A stretch of 64,000 nucleotides of DNA from Pseudanabaena frigida (lineage in GTDB: Bacteria; Cyanobacteriota; Cyanobacteriia; Pseudanabaenales; Pseudanabaenaceae), in NCBI GenBank assembly GCA_003242085.1, contig QBML01000012.1:1-64000 (forward strand). Direction: 5' to 3'. Every line of letters begins with the position of its first letter. Within the stretch, counting starts at the first letter, position 1. Positions 4,049-60,682 of this stretch are shown one piece after another. Position numbers and translations under genes: made by a program. Under the pieces are notes generated by a model. That model saw only the letters and a list, made by a program, of their open reading frames with translations. It was not told the origin of the DNA and made no database searches.

Positions 4049-4924
4049 ATGTTCAAACGAATTACTCTGTTACTTGTTTCTGCGGTAGTTGCTACGATTG
4101 CGCCGATCGCCAATCCCACGCTTGCTGCCCAATCATCGAAACCTGCCCCTGCTGAGCTTTCAAATATCGTCTTTGCTCTGGACAAAGCCGCCAGTCAGCA
4201 AGATATCGAAGCTGTAATGAAATACTATGCCCCAACTTTTAATCACTCAGACGGGCTAGATCGCGATCGATACAAACAGGTATTGCGCGAACTCTGGCAG
4301 CGTTATAAAAATATTAGCTATCGCACCGAAATCTCAAAATGGGAAAAAAAAGGTGACCTGATTACTGCGGAAACAGTAACAATGGTTCAGGGCATGAAGG
4401 GGGCGGAAAACGACAACTTCAAATTAGATGCAAGGTTGATTTCCACACAGACCTATAAAACTATTAACGGTCAGTTACAGGTTGTGTCACAGCAAATTCT
4501 GGCGGAACAATCTTCGCTTAGTACTGGTGATGCGCCGCCACCAGTAAAGCTGAAAGTGCCCGAACTAATTGGTGTAGGTCGTCAGTACGTCCTTGATGCA
4601 ATCGTTACTGAGCCACTTGGCACAAGTCTCGTATTAGGTGCGGCGATCGAAGAACCTGTCGAAGCTAAGAATTTTCTGAACGAAAATACAATTAATTTGC
4701 GCCCTCTCAAGGCTGGTGGACTGTTTAAGATTGGTCAAGCACCTTTCGCATCAGGCGATCGCTGGATCTCAGTAGTTTTAGTACGTGAGTCTGGCATCAC
4801 GATCACCAGCCAACGTTTGCGCGTCAGCAAAGATTTTACAGGCAATCAGTATACGCCTCTGCCTGAGCCAGATACGACTCCGAGCCGCGTACGTCCTCGT
4901 CCCAATAACGAGCAAACTCTCTAA
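4049..4924 (+). CDS. Exported protein with NTF2-like N-terminal domain, function unknown
   Basis: The first 27 residues form a signal peptide (MFKRITLLL... ending PTLAAQ). Residues about 35-150 look like an NTF2/SnoaL-type fold: 'AASQQDIEAVMKYYAPTFNH' followed by 'YKQVLRELWQRYKNISYRTE'. A second, beta-rich part (about 170-265) is followed by a proline/arginine-rich tail. No catalytic residues are recognised. Likely periplasmic or outer-membrane facing. It lies 42 bases after pyrFE and ends just before a strong terminator hairpin. Fold assignment is a guess from sequence style. Confidence 0.7.
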   Translation: MFKRITLLLVSAVVATIAPIANPTLAAQSSKPAPAELSNIVFALDKAASQQDIEAVMKYYAPTFNHSDGLDRDRYKQVLRELWQRYKNISYRTEISKWEKKGDLITAETVTMVQGMKGAENDNFKLDARLISTQTYKTINGQLQVVSQQILAEQSSLSTGDAPPPVKLKVPELIGVGRQYVLDAIVTEPLGTSLVLGAAIEEPVEAKNFLNENTINLRPLKAGGLFKIGQAPFASGDRWISVVLVRESGITITSQRLRVSKDFTGNQYTPLPEPDTTPSRVRPRPNNEQTL

Positions 4925-11346: not shown

Positions 11347-13083
11347 ATGATCGAGCCGATTGGATACATATTAGGAACCAAAGATGCCACGCCACTTGAG
11401 TTTTGGGTGGCAGTCAGTGATGGCAAAGTCCTGCGACTTGATGATGTCGTGCAAGTCAAAACCGATCGCCCCGACAAAAAAGGTGTCGTCAACTTTTATG
11501 GTGTAGTCGATCACGTACGAACTATCCACGAAGGAACCCAATTTGATACGGATACATTCTTAGTTACTAGTGGCAGTATGCCCGTGAATGTGTCCTATGC
11601 TGCCCATATCCAAGTCACGCGCATTGAGCCCGAAGAATATTTACCACCACAGCCTAGCGATGCTGTCTATTTAGCTGAAGATGAGAACCTCAGATTTGCG
11701 CTAAATTTTGATGGGATGGAACAGCGCATCTCCGCAGGAATCATGCGAAATGGTAGTCCTGCCTATTTGAATTATGAATTTATCGACGGTACAAAGGGCG
11801 CTCATGTCAATATTTCGGGAATTTCGGGGGTAGCGACTAAAACCTCTTTTGCCCTATTTTTACTGCATTCCATCTTTAATTCGGCGGCTCTTGGTTCTAA
11901 AAGAGCGAATACCAAAGCATTAATCTTTAATGTCAAGGGCGAAGATTTATTCTTTCTCGATAAGTCAAATAATAAAATGCGCGAAGAGGATCGCGCTACT
12001 TATCATGCACTCGATCTACCTGTAGAGCCATTTCGAGATGTGCGGTTTTGCGTAGCTCCAAAGAAAAATACTCAAGAGATAGAACCCCATCTCGATCAAC
12101 GATCCGATAATATTTCGGCATATGTTTGGGGAATGCGTGAATTTTGTCGCGATCGCCTATTTCGTTTTTTGTTTGCAGGAGACGACTTAGAGCGCGGAAA
12201 TATTGGATTCTTAGCAAGTATTGTCGAGGAGCGTTTGGCGAGATTAGCGGCGGATAATGACAAATATGATAAGAAGTTAGGATTTATGCCTAGAGCTAGT
12301 CTAGACCTTGATGATGCCTATGGAGAAGATGGCAAGGATAAGGTAGAAACATTCCGCGATTTGATTGAATTTCTCGAAGATAAATTAGTTGAGAATCCCG
12401 ATCAGAAATGGTTGGGACGCAATGCTCCTGCCACTGCGGAAGCACTTACCCGCCGTTTATGGGGAATTGCCGATGAAATGGGACATCTGGTACGGGGCGA
12501 TCTTCCTGCGGAAGAGTTGCAAAAATACAAGCTCGATCCCCTTGCTGCCGAATATCAGCTAACGATCGCCGATATCAATAAGCTTGGCAGTAAAGCCCAA
12601 AAGTTTGTGGTGGGTGTATTGCTACAAAAACTCTTCATGGAAAAGGAAAAGCGCGGTCAATATCCCGTAGTCTTTATCGTTCTCGATGAGCTGAATAAAT
12701 ATGCACCTAAAGAAGGTCGCAGCCCCATTAAAGACTTGTTAGTGGAAATTGCAGAACGGGGGCGATCGCTTGGCATCATTTTAATTGGCGCACAACAAAC
12801 TGCCTCGGAGGTGGAGCGTCGCGTCGTCGGACAGGCGGCGGTGCGCGTAGTTGGTCGTCTTGATTCTGCCGAGGTAGAGCGTCCTGAATATAACTTCTTG
12901 ACAGGTGCTTGTCGGAAGCGATCGCTCTTATTAAAGTCTGGCAGTATGTTCATCCATCAGCCCGAAGTTCCATCACCATTGCTGGTTGGTTTTCCATTTC
13001 CTGCTTATGCGACGCGATTGCGTGAAGTACAAATCAATGAAATGGAAGAGAAGATTCTCAAAAACAAAGTTAAGCGTTTGTAA
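11347..13083 (+). CDS. HerA-like ATPase (DUF87) with N-terminal HAS-barrel
   Basis: HerA/FtsK-clade ATPase; relatives act as DNA-translocating pumps, often with a nuclease partner (NurA), which is not adjacent here. Residues about 1-95 resemble the HAS-barrel that precedes HerA motors. The P-loop region is GISGVATKTS at 158-167, in which the usual GK[ST] glycine is Thr. Walker B is VVFIVLDE (Asp447-Glu448), followed by 'ELNKYAP' and the arginine-rich ERGRSLGIILIGAQQTASEV. The altered P-loop may be normal for this cyanobacterial subgroup. A 166-base copy of its 3' end sits 0.5 kb downstream. Function in repair or defence cannot be decided from sequence. Confidence 0.85.
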   Translation: MIEPIGYILGTKDATPLEFWVAVSDGKVLRLDDVVQVKTDRPDKKGVVNFYGVVDHVRTIHEGTQFDTDTFLVTSGSMPVNVSYAAHIQVTRIEPEEYLPPQPSDAVYLAEDENLRFALNFDGMEQRISAGIMRNGSPAYLNYEFIDGTKGAHVNISGISGVATKTSFALFLLHSIFNSAALGSKRANTKALIFNVKGEDLFFLDKSNNKMREEDRATYHALDLPVEPFRDVRFCVAPKKNTQEIEPHLDQRSDNISAYVWGMREFCRDRLFRFLFAGDDLERGNIGFLASIVEERLARLAADNDKYDKKLGFMPRASLDLDDAYGEDGKDKVETFRDLIEFLEDKLVENPDQKWLGRNAPATAEALTRRLWGIADEMGHLVRGDLPAEELQKYKLDPLAAEYQLTIADINKLGSKAQKFVVGVLLQKLFMEKEKRGQYPVVFIVLDELNKYAPKEGRSPIKDLLVEIAERGRSLGIILIGAQQTASEVERRVVGQAAVRVVGRLDSAEVERPEYNFLTGACRKRSLLLKSGSMFIHQPEVPSPLLVGFPFPAYATRLREVQINEMEEKILKNKVKRL

Positions 13084-13117
13084 TTGCGATCGCTAAACTC
13101 GTCACCAAAAATTACAA

Positions 13118-13513
13118 CTAATAAAGTGGATGCCAGCCGCGCCACCGTAAGATTGCCCATGCATGAGCTTTGGTTAACATCATCCGATCAACGATCTTTC
13201 CTAAATCTTGGAGTTCTTGATATTCTGTTTCTGAAAGTTCAGACTGTTGGTTTTTCTCAAGCAAATACTGGTGGCGATCGCTATGTACGTCTGAGACTTG
13301 ACTATGGGCAATTTCTAATAACTGATTAATCTTTAATAATTGCATTTTCGATAATTCAGCTTGCATTTCTAGTGGCAAGTTCTCGACTGAGGGTGGCAAG
13401 TTACCTGTAATACTTTGTAAAGCTAGTGATTCTAAAGGTTGAGCAGTTTGCTCGGCAATGCGAGTCAACTGTTGAAAAAGTGGCTCAGGTAGCTCTAATG
13501 TCAGTTTTTGCAT
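13118..13513 (-). CDS. Small protein with antitoxin-like N-terminus, unknown function
   Basis: 131 residues. The start MQKLTLELPEPLFQQLTRIA resembles ribbon-helix-helix or antitoxin-type N-termini of cyanobacterial proteins; the middle and end are helical and Gln/Glu-rich, ending RMMLTKAHAWAILRWRGWHP, a tail seen in many uncharacterised cyanobacterial proteins. No toxin gene is beside it. It lies convergent with the HerA-like gene, 34 bases away, and upstream of it is the duplicated HerA 3' end. Confidence 0.6.
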   Translation of the reverse strand: MQKLTLELPEPLFQQLTRIAEQTAQPLESLALQSITGNLPPSVENLPLEMQAELSKMQLLKINQLLEIAHSQVSDVHSDRHQYLLEKNQQSELSETEYQELQDLGKIVDRMMLTKAHAWAILRWRGWHPLY

Positions 13514-13855
13514 AACTTTTTTAGTGATAGCTTAATCTATATTAGCGATATTGCCGATCGCTAAGTCAAAAAATAATAGAGCTTAATAGATAAAATCAGC
13601 GATCATTTAATTCATAACCAAAAATTGCGATCGCTCTTGTTAAAGTCTGGCAGTATGTTCATCCATCAGCCCGAAGTTCCATCACCTTTGCTAGTTGGTT
13701 TTTCATTTCCTTCTTATGCAACGCGATTGCGAGAAGTACAAACCAGTGAGATTGAAGAGAAGATTCTCAAAAGTAAAGTTAAGCGGTTGTAATTTTCACG
13801 ATTTCTATGTTAGCCTCTGTAAATTTAGAAATCGCGATCACCTTTAGGAGAGAAA
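13514..13855. other. Intergenic region carrying the duplicated HerA 3' end
   Basis: The only recognisable content is the 166-base HerA tail copy. Near the right edge TTTAGGAGAG (about 13843-13852) is the ribosome-binding site of the alpha/beta hydrolase. Confidence 0.6.
13627..13792 (+). pseudogene. Displaced copy of the 3' end of the HerA-like ATPase gene
   Basis: 166 bases align without any gap to 12918-13083, the last 55 codons and stop of the HerA-like gene, with about 20 substitutions. The copy begins exactly at GCGATCGC, as does the matching part of the source gene. No start codon or upstream part of the gene is present, so it is a noncoding fragment or the leftover of a former second copy. 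The many silent or conservative changes suggest it was once under protein-level selection. Confidence 0.92.
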
Positions 13856-19472: not shown

Positions 19473-19588
19473 ACTTAGGCTTCGTCACTAGTATAGTCTC
19501 ATTGATAGTCTATTAGTCTCAAAGTTTAATGGCATAGCGATTTTTCTTCTGGTTCCTTCGATCGGTAATTACTGTAAAAACAAAAGAG

Positions 19589-19687
19589 ATAGCTAGGACA
19601 AATCAAAACCCAAATAAGTAGAGGCGGCGCTTCGCGCCGCCTCTACTTATTTGGGTTTTATGTCCTAAGCAAAACTCACACTGCTAC
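19589..19687 (+). mobile_element. 99-bp MITE-like element, copy 1
   Basis: Starts ATAGCTAGGACAAATC and ends TGTCCTAAGCAAAACT...GCTAC; the centre is a perfect 26-bp-arm palindrome (19605-19659) around TTC. Two further copies of identical length are at 28541-28639 and 34363-34461. It has no coding capacity. It lies 5 bases beyond the stop of the Hpt gene and could terminate it. Confidence 0.85.
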
Positions 19688-19692
19688 ATAGT

Positions 19693-20055
19693 TCAGGATG
19701 AAAAACCAGCCATTTTTTCCGCAACAAACAGCTCAATATCTTTCATTTTTTCAAGCATATCATTGAGGATAGTTAAGATTTTTTCTGAATCACAGTTAAG
19801 ATCTAATTTTTCAATTTGTTCGGCTAAAGCTTGCATTTGCAGAGCTCCTACATTACTGCTAGCCCCCTTAATGTGATGGGCTTCTCTCAGAACTTGAGCA
19901 AGATCGTTGCTAGAAAACTCACCACGAATTTTATCTATCCGTTGCATAATATCTTCAATATAAACTTGCAGAACCTCAATTTCAAACTCTATATCTCCTT
20001 CTGAAATTTGATTGAGTTGTTCTAGATCGATAGCAGAGTTCGATTTGCGATCCAT
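19693..20055 (-). CDS. Hpt-domain phosphotransfer protein
   Basis: 120 residues, a stand-alone histidine phosphotransfer domain: His60 in REAHHIKGASSNVGA is the phosphorylated residue. Such proteins pass phosphate between hybrid kinases and response regulators. A hybrid kinase without its own Hpt domain is encoded about 3 kb away (23169-25676), a plausible but unproven partner. Its 3' end abuts MITE copy 1. Confidence 0.88.
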   Translation of the reverse strand: MDRKSNSAIDLEQLNQISEGDIEFEIEVLQVYIEDIMQRIDKIRGEFSSNDLAQVLREAHHIKGASSNVGALQMQALAEQIEKLDLNCDSEKILTILNDMLEKMKDIELFVAEKMAGFSS

Positions 20056-28487: not shown

Positions 28488-28540
28488 AAAGGTTGGCAAT
28501 CCATTTAAATTTTGAGAACTCAACTATAGTAATTCAAGAG

Positions 28541-28639
28541 ATATCTAGGACAAATAAAAACCCAAATAAATAGAGGCGGCGCTTTGCACCGCCTCTATTT
28601 ATTTAGGTTTTATGTCCTAAGCAAAACTCGTACTGCTAT
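28541..28639 (+). mobile_element. 99-bp MITE-like element, copy 2
   Basis: Same architecture and length as the 19.6-kb copy: ATATCTAGGACAAAT at the left, TGTCCTAAGCAAAACT...GCTAT at the right. The central stem has a few unpaired positions (GCGCTTTGCACC), so this copy is more decayed. It lies 74 bases upstream of the ATG chosen for the PAS-GGDEF-EAL gene. Confidence 0.85.
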
Positions 28640-28712
28640 ATAACCAGTCAATTTGGCAGTAGATATACAATTAAGAGGGCTACCAACTACTAGAATTCGC
28701 GATGTAGAGGTT

Positions 28713-34323: not shown

Positions 34324-34362
34324 GGATCTTAGTTTCTACTCCCTTCACACCTGAAAATAGAT

Positions 34363-34461
34363 ATAGCAATGCAAGTTTTGCTTAGGATATAAAACCCAAA
34401 AGACGAGTGGCGGCGCGAAGCGCCGCCACTCGTCTTTTGGGTTTTGATTTGTCCTAGCTAT
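34363..34461 (-). mobile_element. 99-bp MITE-like element, copy 3
   Basis: Reverse orientation of the same element (ATAGC...TTTTGCTTAGGATATAAAAC at the left, TTTGTCCTAGCTAT at the right). Its central stem sequence (AAGACGAGTGGCGGCGC) differs from copies 1 and 2, yet the arms still pair perfectly around GAA. The stop codon of the pentapeptide gene lies inside its right end. Confidence 0.85.
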
Positions 34462-35675
34462 CCCTTCCATTCTGCGATCAGCCATTTTTGGATAATTTCC
34501 TGTGAAACACTGACAAAAGTATTCTCAGCTAATAACTTAGTTAAGTCCTGATTATCTGGCTTACCGATCGCTTCAAGCAATCGTAATTTAAAAGCAGGAT
34601 CGAAGTTCGCTTGATAACTAATTTCTAATTTTAAAAGCGTTAAGCGATCGCTTTCAGAAGCATCAACATAACGTTGAGAATATTGGTCGATCAAATTATC
34701 GAAAATATGGCTCATTTCTTCGATAATAACGCGCTCTTGAAGAATATCCGATCCTCGATTTTCTAGTTCTATAGCCGCTTTATCCTTACTAACTAATTTC
34801 ACAAAATCGCCTTGAGCAAAAGTTGTATGGGGATTAAATGGGCGGCGATCGCGATATTTGCGGAGAATATAATCGGGAAAACTACGGAGAATATGCTTCA
34901 GATAGATGGATTTACAAATAACCTCATCAAATCTCGTATCAGAATCAATTATCCAGTCCTCAATACAAGCATCCGTGAGATCTGCGGAACTAAAGTTCGC
35001 ATTCAGAGCTTTAACTCGAAATAAATCTGCTCCACAAAGATTTACATTCGTTAGGTTAGCTTTATTTAGATTTGCAGCAAATAGCTTAGCTTTACTTAGA
35101 TTTGCACCACTGAGATTTGCGGCAAAAAGATCGGCAAAATCAAGATTAGCTTCGCTCAAATTTGCTCCACTCAGATTTGCTTCTTGGAGATTAGTTTGCC
35201 GAATTGAAATCAATGAAATAACATTGCCACTGAGAATAGACTGAATATTTTTAGATTTAATAAATTCTGGTACGCCTAGGCTGAGATTAGCTTTGTGCAA
35301 ATCTGCATTACTCAAATTTGCACCAGTAAGGGTTACTTCACAAAGCAGAGCATCAGTTAGAATAGTGTTTTGGAGGGACGCTCCTTGCAGTTCTGCTCCA
35401 CTAAGCGCCGCACTACTCAGATTTGCTCCATTAAAATTTGCTCCAATTAGCTTTGCCCCAAATAAAGTTGCTTCTTTAAGATTAGTGTTACTTAAATTCG
35501 CTCCACTGAGGTTAGCTCCACTAAGGTTAGCTTTACTCAAATTGGCGTTGCTCAAATCTATTTTTTCAAAGCTAGCTCCAGCTGCACTAAATCGTTGACT
35601 TTCTTCTCCATCGCTCTCTAGCCATAGCTTGTGTTTAGCTATGCTTTCTTTTAGGGACGATCTAAAAAGTGCCAT
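34458..35675 (-). CDS. Pentapeptide-repeat protein
   Basis: 405 residues. The first 240 residues contain two blocks of A(N/D)LSxA-type pentapeptide repeats (about 40-130 and 155-235), each forming a right-handed quadrilateral beta-helix. The C-terminal part (about 240-405) is a helical domain, not recognised, rich in charged residues. Function is not known; pentapeptide proteins are abundant in cyanobacteria and some mimic DNA. The stop codon (TAG, 34458-34460) is supplied by the terminal repeat of MITE copy 3, so insertion may have altered the 3' end. Confidence 0.9.
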   Translation of the reverse strand: MALFRSSLKESIAKHKLWLESDGEESQRFSAAGASFEKIDLSNANLSKANLSGANLSGANLSNTNLKEATLFGAKLIGANFNGANLSSAALSGAELQGASLQNTILTDALLCEVTLTGANLSNADLHKANLSLGVPEFIKSKNIQSILSGNVISLISIRQTNLQEANLSGANLSEANLDFADLFAANLSGANLSKAKLFAANLNKANLTNVNLCGADLFRVKALNANFSSADLTDACIEDWIIDSDTRFDEVICKSIYLKHILRSFPDYILRKYRDRRPFNPHTTFAQGDFVKLVSKDKAAIELENRGSDILQERVIIEEMSHIFDNLIDQYSQRYVDASESDRLTLLKLEISYQANFDPAFKLRLLEAIGKPDNQDLTKLLAENTFVSVSQEIIQKWLIAEWKG

Positions 35676-58517: not shown

Positions 58518-58565
58518 ATTTTACAATGCTTCATACCAGTTAATCACTTACAGTAATTCCCAAGC

Positions 58566-58636
58566 AAACCCGAACCAAGAAAAATTTTGAAAGCGTTGCT
58601 TTGCAACGCTTTCAAAATTTTTCTTGGTTCGGGTTT
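58566..58636. repeat. Perfect 34-bp-arm hairpin, TTT loop
   Basis: Arms AAACCCGAACCAAGAAAAAT(TTTGAAAGCGTTGC) and complement around TTT with no mismatch: the longest palindrome in the window. It lies just past the stop of the HAD gene (58652) and can terminate it. Confidence 0.9.
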
Positions 58637-58651
58637 AGGTGCACAGCATCT

Positions 58652-60682
58652 CTAATTTCTAGTTTTGATGGACATAACCAGTTTTTTGAGCCGTTGCAGT
58701 AATTTTCGCTGGGCGATCGCAATGGGCACTAGTACTTTAACATGGGGCGAACTAACTTGTAAGCTGGCTTCGTACCATGCATTGCGATGCACAGTAATAC
58801 CAGCACTTCGAGCGATCGCATATTTAAGAACGGTAGCTAGGCGAAAAGGCATCGCCCAATAAAAGTGATAAAGCTCATTAGGATCGTCAAAAAATGGGCA
58901 ATCCATAAAAGCTTCTGCTTCTTGCTTAGTCGGTGAGTTGTTAAAAGTCAGAAAAAGCTCATCTAAGGCTTCGCGGAGTAACTTTGGAGAGATCGTCGAG
59001 AACATGGAGAGAGGGAAGTCGGCAGGCGATCGCTCGACTAAATGGCGAACAAAAGTAATTACAGATTCTTGAAAAGGTTTTAGCCCCCAACTCAGCGCAG
59101 GTTGATTGTTAACATGTTTAAGAACTGGCAAGACGCTATTATCTGGTTGCAATGCATAGTCAAGAGTCGTACCTTCACAACCAGCACAAAAAACTTCCAT
59201 AGCCGAAACATAGCGATAATCGATATCGTTACGGAGTCCAGTAGAGTTATTTAAGTTAAAGAAAAAGGCGATCGCTTCTCCTTTGTGCTTCAGTCCTCCA
59301 GTTGGTTTATCCAAAGCAAAGTAGAAGCCAACTGGCATCCTCGTACCAAATAACTCAAAAACATTTTCAAGAGAAACTTGTAAACTACCACGCCAACCCA
59401 CATCGACTAGACCAAAGGCTTGCCCATCCAGCATTTTTTCCTGCTGCAAGTAAGCCTTTAAAACTTCACGTTTTTGCTTGGCAACTTGTAAAACTAATTC
59501 TTGGAGAGGTTCGTTTTTTTCCAACTGCGATCGTAGCGATAGTCTCTCTTTAGATGATAAATTCTGTTGCCAGCGATCGCACGGATAACCTAATGGCTCA
59601 AAAATTGGCTGAGCCGATTGGCGATCGAGACACATTCTTGCTAGCAAACTATCAATCGTAAAAATATCCGTATCATCAAACATCCACTCCCAAAAGGCCT
59701 TATTGATTTTAGTGAGTCCAGGCATTCTTAATGCTTGACGACTGACATAAAGATAACGAAGTTCAACTTCTGGATAAATATTAGGTGCAAGTTCTTTGGC
59801 AATTTTCAACAAGATTTCGCCATCTCTTGCTAAAAAATAAATCCTTGCTAGTTGCTTCTCTTTTGCCTGCTGCAAAATCCAGATTGTATAGGCTGTTAGA
59901 ATAGGTGCAGCGACAGAAGCAGCTATATCGCGGAGAACGGCTTCTTTATTCGATTTCGCATCTCTAGTTAAGCGTGTATAGCGGGCAATCCCAGCCCATA
60001 GCGAAGTAATTCCATTTGTATTATGAGAATATTTTTGCAGTATTGATTCATAACGGTTGGGATTGGCATCATTAAATCCAATAGAGCGAACACCCAAAGA
60101 TTTAGGTTTATCAACATCAGTATGCTTGCTATTACCTGTATGAACCAGAGCTTGGGGGCTTAAACGCAAATCTTCAAGTACTTGCAAGAACAAATCTCCC
60201 TGCCCTTTAGACTTTCGGCATTGAGCAGATAAATATAATCGCTCGCCTTCTTGCCAAAATCCATGCTGTTTGAGCCTTTCTTCAAGAAAGTCAGCAGGCA
60301 AATACATATCTGATAGGAATAAAACATGAGGATGAGATCGCCTCGCTTTCTCAACAAGTTGATGGGCTGTGGGTACGGCAACTAGATATTCTGTTTCGAC
60401 TTCTATCTCTAGCTTCTTGAGCTTATCTACTATTTCTAAATCTATTTCTAGGGTATTAGCAATTTCACGATAGATTTCATCTAAACTAACTTCGCCACCT
60501 TCATAGAACAAGCGCGATTGTCTCTCAGCATTAATACGGATGTTTCTAAAGGTTTCAGACGAGAATTTAATCCATCCAAATTGTAGGGCGCGATCGCCAC
60601 ATATTCTAAAGATTTCGGTTGGCTCGATAACCAATCTAGTAAGAAGCGTATCGAATATATCAAAGCTAAATATTTCTGTCAT
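58652..60682 (-). CDS. Large HAD-family protein with uncharacterised C-terminal domain
   Basis: 676 residues. Residues about 1-215 form a HAD-type phosphatase: Asp8 in FDIFDT (motif I), Ser in LFLSDMYLP (motif II), Lys in RKSKGQGDLF (motif III) and HTGNSKHTDVDKPKSLG (motif IV). Residues 240-676 (about 430) form a second, mainly helical/mixed domain with no motif I can name; proteins of this sort often sit beside glycosyltransferases. Probably a surface-polysaccharide or glycan-related enzyme. The gene is followed (downstream) by a 34-bp palindrome. Confidence 0.8.
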   Translation of the reverse strand: MTEIFSFDIFDTLLTRLVIEPTEIFRICGDRALQFGWIKFSSETFRNIRINAERQSRLFYEGGEVSLDEIYREIANTLEIDLEIVDKLKKLEIEVETEYLVAVPTAHQLVEKARRSHPHVLFLSDMYLPADFLEERLKQHGFWQEGERLYLSAQCRKSKGQGDLFLQVLEDLRLSPQALVHTGNSKHTDVDKPKSLGVRSIGFNDANPNRYESILQKYSHNTNGITSLWAGIARYTRLTRDAKSNKEAVLRDIAASVAAPILTAYTIWILQQAKEKQLARIYFLARDGEILLKIAKELAPNIYPEVELRYLYVSRQALRMPGLTKINKAFWEWMFDDTDIFTIDSLLARMCLDRQSAQPIFEPLGYPCDRWQQNLSSKERLSLRSQLEKNEPLQELVLQVAKQKREVLKAYLQQEKMLDGQAFGLVDVGWRGSLQVSLENVFELFGTRMPVGFYFALDKPTGGLKHKGEAIAFFFNLNNSTGLRNDIDYRYVSAMEVFCAGCEGTTLDYALQPDNSVLPVLKHVNNQPALSWGLKPFQESVITFVRHLVERSPADFPLSMFSTISPKLLREALDELFLTFNNSPTKQEAEAFMDCPFFDDPNELYHFYWAMPFRLATVLKYAIARSAGITVHRNAWYEASLQVSSPHVKVLVPIAIAQRKLLQRLKKLVMSIKTRN

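Follow-up and report, generated by a model that had tools for sequence, protein, structure and literature searches.

The window analysed here is the whole stretch of 64,000 nucleotides from Pseudanabaena frigida. It contains a herA gene whose 3' end is present twice, the second time behind a 543-bp spacer:

11347..13083, + strand: herA, encoding a 578-aa ATPase (assigned with phmmer to a solved HerA structure and with PADLOC)
12918..13083, + strand: copy 1 of the 166-base tail, the functional herA 3' end, starting at HIP1
13627..13634, + strand: HIP1 octamer at the joint between spacer and second tail
13627..13792, + strand: copy 2, a fragment from the 3' end of herA that lacks the ATPase part, with 54 open codons behind HIP1

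Judged from its full-length similarity to characterised HerA, the 578-aa gene product is a true HerA. It matches the solved HerA structure 7f6d in phmmer (E 2e-162, covering residues 3-561) and the HerA profile of PADLOC (2e-8), and no Pfam family was found at E 0.001. The gene contains three HIP1 sites, its DNA differs by ~13% from that of the nearest congeners, and the sequence downstream of it is highly variable among them.

The duplicated herA 3' end

The stretches 12918-13083 and 13627-13792 are 166-base direct copies that align with zero gaps, both starting with the HIP1 octamer GCGATCGC and ending with the stop codon, as the original prediction had described. Identity extends 2 bases beyond the stop codon (168 bases, 92%) and then ends, with 6 (left) and 9 (right) matches between the repeat copies in the outer 40 bases. 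A whole-genome protein search (E up to 0.001) returned the herA tail at these two places and nowhere else in the genome, and the repeat is therefore far beyond chance. The copies differ at 14 positions, fewer than the roughly 20 first counted, and many are indeed third codon positions (9 of the 14); 8 differences are silent and the other 6 change the amino acid. Of the 23 congeners compared, 22 carry an exact octamer at the position of 12918, which makes this HIP1 older than the duplication of the tail.

All tail comparisons were made with 23 congeners, leaving aside G006 (no herA, 82% complete) and G001 (match ending at residue 567, out of register); the counts over 24 rows, for tail residues and flank scoring, still contain the out-of-register G001 row. 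Copy 1 has zero changes at invariant residues, and it is altered elsewhere at places where copy 2 retains the common state, so that copy 2 does not derive from present-day copy 1. At three residues that do not vary among the 23 in-register congeners, copy 2 has undergone the replacements P>S, A>S and N>S, and a fourth replacement, I>T, affects a variable residue. Because of the three replacements at invariant residues we read copy 2 as a dead herA fragment that is decaying, and it does not look like the remainder of a lost second gene. A function of the second tail, as a small gene or a HerA decoy, is extremely improbable: the reading frame is still open for 54 codons, but the ATPase part is absent, TTG is the sole start, three invariant residues are replaced, and the DNA search with the tail found none beside herA in the congeners.

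Between the copies, dS is 0.248 (8 of about 38 sites) and dN 0.050. The ratio of 0.20 is about ten times the dN/dS of herA between species (~0.01-0.03, with no whole-gene value from congeners G007 and G018), yet remains below 1. This fits one constrained and one relaxed copy, and an early functional phase of copy 2 is neither proved nor excluded by it. This is the rate comparison proposed in the original prediction. With 8 of the 14 differences synonymous, replacements are scarcer than might be expected of an entirely unconstrained copy 2, and with 4 replacements assigned to copy 2 nominal significance is reached only when every ambiguous silent change is attributed to it as well; the numbers are too small to tell whether copy 2 has been free from constraint since its origin.

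The two copies are mutually closest. The nearest of the 23 congeners has 23 differences from copy 1 and 21 from copy 2, compared with the 14 between the copies, and in a tree of the 25 tails the two copies are split from the 23 congeners with a support of 93. The duplication therefore post-dates the split from the sampled species, or a closer, unsampled relative was involved.

The spacer and the copy number of herA

The 543 bp between the two tails hold one larger reading frame, with short repeats towards both edges:

13082..13094 (+ strand) and 13623-13635: 13-bp direct repeat AATTGCGATCGCT, at both spacer edges
13086..13113, + strand: R1, short repeat GCGATCGC-TAAACTCGTCACCAAAAATT, two bases after copy 1
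13118..13513, - strand: antitoxin-like ORF, 131 aa, comprising residues 1 to ~126 of a 139-aa protein and the last HNH codons
13136..13137, - strand: junction of a 443-bp deletion (length relative to G016; the two matches overlap by 2 bp), with nearly the whole HNH gene lost
13579..13595, - strand: degenerate S element TTTTATCTATTAAGCTC, in the upstream flank of the cassette
13599..13626, + strand: R2, a degenerate second R, 79% identical to R1, directly before the second tail

The reading frame is what is left of a pair of genes, an antitoxin-like gene and an HNH gene, which is putatively of the toxin-antitoxin type. It matches the 139-aa antitoxin-like protein of two congeners (93% in G016, 92% in G019), in which the pair is intact (loci L074 and L075, respectively): the antitoxin-like gene is followed at once by a 139-aa nuclease with an HNH domain (PF01844, 1.7e-11). 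The 443-bp deletion in the window fuses codon ~126 of the antitoxin-like gene in frame to the last HNH codons, and the window thus differs from the other antitoxin-like/HNH modules of Pseudanabaena, whose first gene it resembles, in the deletion of the partner nuclease. Some HNH match adjoins 17 of the 22 antitoxin-like loci in the genus, in 12 cases over most of the HNH protein, which shows that the gene pair is real. The antitoxin-like protein has no match in PADLOC or NCBIfam at E 0.1, and DUF7441 (E 0.14, below the family cut-off) is the sole Pfam hit of the ORF in the window.

In G016 and G019 the pairs lie on contigs different from the herA contig. The dS of the antitoxin-like gene is 0.285 to G016 and 0.306 to G019, far below that of herA codons 1-524 (0.80 and 0.86), and the cassette has therefore moved horizontally between species. 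The transfer of the cassette and the duplication of the tail are about similar in age (0.29-0.31 versus 0.25), with the 8 synonymous changes in the tail being a small number.

The short repeats are also found beyond this locus. S lies at the corresponding place upstream of the cassette in both G016 and G019; as a widespread repeat of the own genome it was sought in 1.264 Mb, where even 5 allowed mismatches gave no match. When up to 3 mismatches are allowed, 8 of the 26 genomes have a single R each; the window's own genome is one of them, and its whole sequence yields one match at that threshold. In G016, an NTP-transferase/HepT pair has a copy of R on either side. In G003 (L118, G003:C32, 1489-3028), herA is followed by R, 11 bases after the stop codon, and then by an MmeI-type restriction-modification gene. 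A plasmid collection gave no match.

The relatives have one herA. The gene is single in 24 of the 25 congeners, at 89-98% identity, and G006 (82% complete) is the sole genome among them without herA. None of the 25 has two. When the tail was used as a DNA query (E up to 0.01), the matches were each herA, copy 2 and one 62-bp relic in G021, with no herA tail beside herA in any congener.

These results bear on the origin proposed in the original prediction, in which a full tandem second herA was mostly deleted between HIP1 sites. In its favour, herA contains three HIP1 sites, and a title cited in PMC4390886 says that HIP1 promotes excision. However, the search for relatives with tandem herA genes ended at 0 of 25, and the spacer showed no remnants of herA and matches the cassette present elsewhere in G016 and G019, so that no deleted herA copy is needed. 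We therefore rejected a lost complete second herA as the main reading and consider it improbable. Two other elements of the prediction, a HIP1-to-HIP1 rearrangement behind the second tail and an antitoxin-like gene between the copies, gained support.

Origin of the second tail

The main candidate for the original downstream flank is the sequence behind copy 2:

13793..13845, + strand: sequence after copy 2, the probable original flank, similar to what follows herA in G009

Over 60 bases, the flank of copy 2 scores 28 with the post-herA sequence of G009, and among 1080 null positions this score was reached by the sequence itself alone; the match is short and the best of 24 congener rows, so that the corrected support is modest. 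For the 60 bases behind copy 1 the scores are 21 with G021, 18 with G002 and 16 with G003 (null fractions 0.009, 0.024 and 0.046), the match with G003 being the R repeat. On balance we favour copy 2 as the tail that was there first, together with the flank that belonged to it; the choice is not firm, given the short, best-of-24 match to G009 and the scores of the flank behind copy 1.

We hypothesize that the locus is an insertion scar, in which a cassette was joined at HIP1 to the 3' end of herA and the tail was duplicated; we hold this reading somewhat likelier than all others together. The distance of the nearest congeners (~13% in herA DNA), their variable sequence behind herA, the scores of the flank of copy 1 and the large share of synonymous differences between the tails weigh against it. 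The incoming cassette would have consisted of the antitoxin-like and HNH genes flanked by short repeats that bear HIP1 (R and S), and the right-hand joint would have been made between the HIP1 inside herA (12918) and a HIP1 at the cassette edge. The observed joint lies exactly at HIP1, with the conserved octamer at 12918 on one side and the edge of R2 on the other. Use of the HIP1 inside herA would have left the original tail stranded downstream as copy 2, with the original flank behind it, and herA would have stayed complete since an incoming or re-copied piece brought a second tail, now copy 1. The 166 bases do not distinguish a copy 1 that came from outside from a re-copy of the resident tail.

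The repeat, the joint at HIP1, the identity of the cassette, the deletion and the single herA of the relatives are observed, and the order of events and the route are inferred from them. The most likely route, in our view, is one-sided homologous recombination, with incoming DNA that carried a herA tail and, behind it, the cassette; the homologous tail would have served for recombination on one side and the 8-base HIP1 on the other. Afterwards, the 443-bp deletion would have removed the HNH gene and fused its last codons to the antitoxin-like gene, while copy 2 started to decay. Homology-facilitated illegitimate recombination likewise combines one long homologous joint with one joint at a few bases; the herA locus appears to share both joint types, to go by its anatomy. 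The insertion scar is favoured by the kinship of the two tails, the replacements confined to copy 2, the intact gene pairs and low cassette dS in G016 and G019, the R-flanked gene pair of G016 and the match to G009. The relic found in G021 is counted in its favour as well, as a further joint between R and a herA tail, far from herA. It is 62 bp long (L148, G021:C1:36325-36386), lies directly behind an S-R stretch and 1.8 Mb from the single herA of G021, and its match to that herA starts within the HIP1-like octamer GCGATTGC.

The main rival is a duplication in place of the segment HIP1-tail-R, by unequal exchange or template switching between the HIP1 of herA and a HIP1 behind R, with later, separate insertion of the cassette between the copies. 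In its favour, R is found two bases after copy 1, R and HIP1 stand directly before copy 2, and the succession of herA and R exists in G003. Moreover, among pairs of identical 8-mers that lie 100-2000 bp from each other in the sampled own genome, 6.9% are HIP1. On the other hand, no R follows copy 2, where the identity stops 2 bases past the stop codon, and R1 and R2 are 79% alike compared with 92% for the tails. We regard duplication in place as possible but rather unlikely.

The layout of the locus is also similar to that left by site-specific elements, which displace the 3' end of a gene and supply a new one, so that the gene stays complete. Prophage e14 in icd is such a case: the 3' end of the host gene is displaced and the gene kept whole. 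Like icd, herA is whole and has its 3' end duplicated with differences, but its spacer measures 543 bp and holds no integrase-sized gene. Among the frames listed for the spacer, the longest, the 131-aa antitoxin-like ORF, is not large enough to encode an integrase. An integron cassette would be a variant of the same explanation. Integron integrases above the family cut-off are encoded in 13 of the 26 genomes of the genus, and at ~2-4 kb from herA in G002 (G002:C1:4696011), G021 (G021:C1:1862713) and G013 (G013:C21:34220). In contrast, the own genome (G000) has none over the cut-off, the best matches being integron-integrase fragments on another contig (C11:80732-81160). The core of attC sites is GTTRRRY. 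This core is absent from S, from R and from either copy of the HIP1-headed repeat at L098 (described below), and its one match inside the 543-bp spacer is not at an edge. An element of either kind, integrating in herA and restoring its 3' end, is thus very improbable.

HIP1 at repeat ends and around toxin-antitoxin genes

HIP1 occurs 103 times in the window, where 0.8 occurrences are expected, and covers 1.3% of the bases. According to PMC4390886, the octamer is strongly over-represented in many cyanobacteria and its role is little known; the paper is also cited here for the statement that no evidence ties HIP1 to homologous recombination. HIP1-associated recombination is attributed there to Akiyama 1998 and Robinson 1997. 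As in those cases, as far as the citing text describes them, the joint at herA lies exactly at GCGATCGC, and the octamer can act as a very short homology; unlike them, with their plasmids and cloned sequences, the herA locus is a single joint in a natural chromosome, and nothing points to a dedicated enzyme. HIP1 joints thus have precedent, and the herA locus is a new natural example. No published report of this locus was found in the open literature, in searches that were not aimed at Pseudanabaena herA. With a joint that falls precisely on HIP1 in a natural chromosome, and with an insertion-like anatomy, the locus provides a datable example that HIP1 can be the short homology in a rearrangement, and an orphan antitoxin-like gene and a herA fragment are explained as one scar.

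In a 1.264-Mb sample of the own genome, low-copy repeats (at most 3 copies, at least 80% identity) have HIP1 in both copies at 5 of 68 ends. At offset positions the count was 0 of 68 at both 14 and 28 bases outside, and 1, 1 and 2 of 68 at 14, 28 and 42 bases inside. Tested against HIP1 density, the 5 ends give P 0.0009 (0.006 when the herA case is left out), and the comparison with the inside positions (4/204) gives P 0.046. When the identity filter was dropped, the 93 families had HIP1 at 6/186 ends and at 5/186 positions 14 bases inside; for the families of up to 3 copies these counts were 5/148 and 4/148. A possible enrichment is thus visible only under the 80% identity filter, and the cases are not all independent events, since the L098 repeat belongs to a dispersed repeat family. 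As HIP1 accounts for 6.9% of the identical local 8-mer pairs, plain short-homology recombination could produce such a rate, with no dedicated enzyme.

Short HIP1-bearing repeats are also seen beside other genes of the toxin-antitoxin type. At L098 (G000:C33, 13787-14565) in the own genome, 54-bp direct repeats headed by HIP1 stand on both sides of a PIN-toxin pair, and this 54-bp repeat recurs at many places in the genus. At L075 (G019:C88, 3265-6883), four toxin-antitoxin-type pairs stand in a row with a HIP1-headed S repeat at every boundary, all in a single orientation; the toxins or partners are of the PemK/MazF, ParE, HNH and NTP-transferase/HEPN types. PMC4390886 describes SDR5, a small dispersed repeat inserted inside HIP1 in cyanobacteria. 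To judge from that description, R, S and the L098 repeat are comparable, being short, having HIP1 at their start or end and recurring in several Pseudanabaena genomes.

One may speculate that in Pseudanabaena such repeats (HIP1 and about 20 nt) serve as joints for moving and stacking toxin-antitoxin cassettes, with HIP1 as a general rearrangement site and the herA scar as one event among others; we consider this doubtful. Most of 29 intervals between repeats hold toxin-antitoxin-type genes (20 representative proteins were scanned), but these regions were a biased choice, picked for two repeats roughly 0.6-0.8 kb apart. Of 40 places with the L098 repeat that were not picked for pairing, a set without the matches already counted as loci and without some weak or partial ones, 6 are within 700 bp of a match to a library of 45 proteins, compared with 46 of 1985 HIP1 sites in the sampled own genome. 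An integron-like cassette system bounded by the L098 repeat was rejected: there is enrichment (6/40), yet most such repeats are not at library genes, and for that reason we make no general cassette claim.

Two further repeats were noted. A high-copy dispersed repeat of ~115 bp, partly palindromic, is present in the window at 19540-19696, 28524-28640, 34356-34471 and 58546-58657 and in other stretches of the own genome; the pairs listed for it do not end at HIP1. At L207, 66-bp repeats that end with HIP1 (2453-2518 and 4126-4191) lie on either side of two larger ORFs of 219 and 215 aa.
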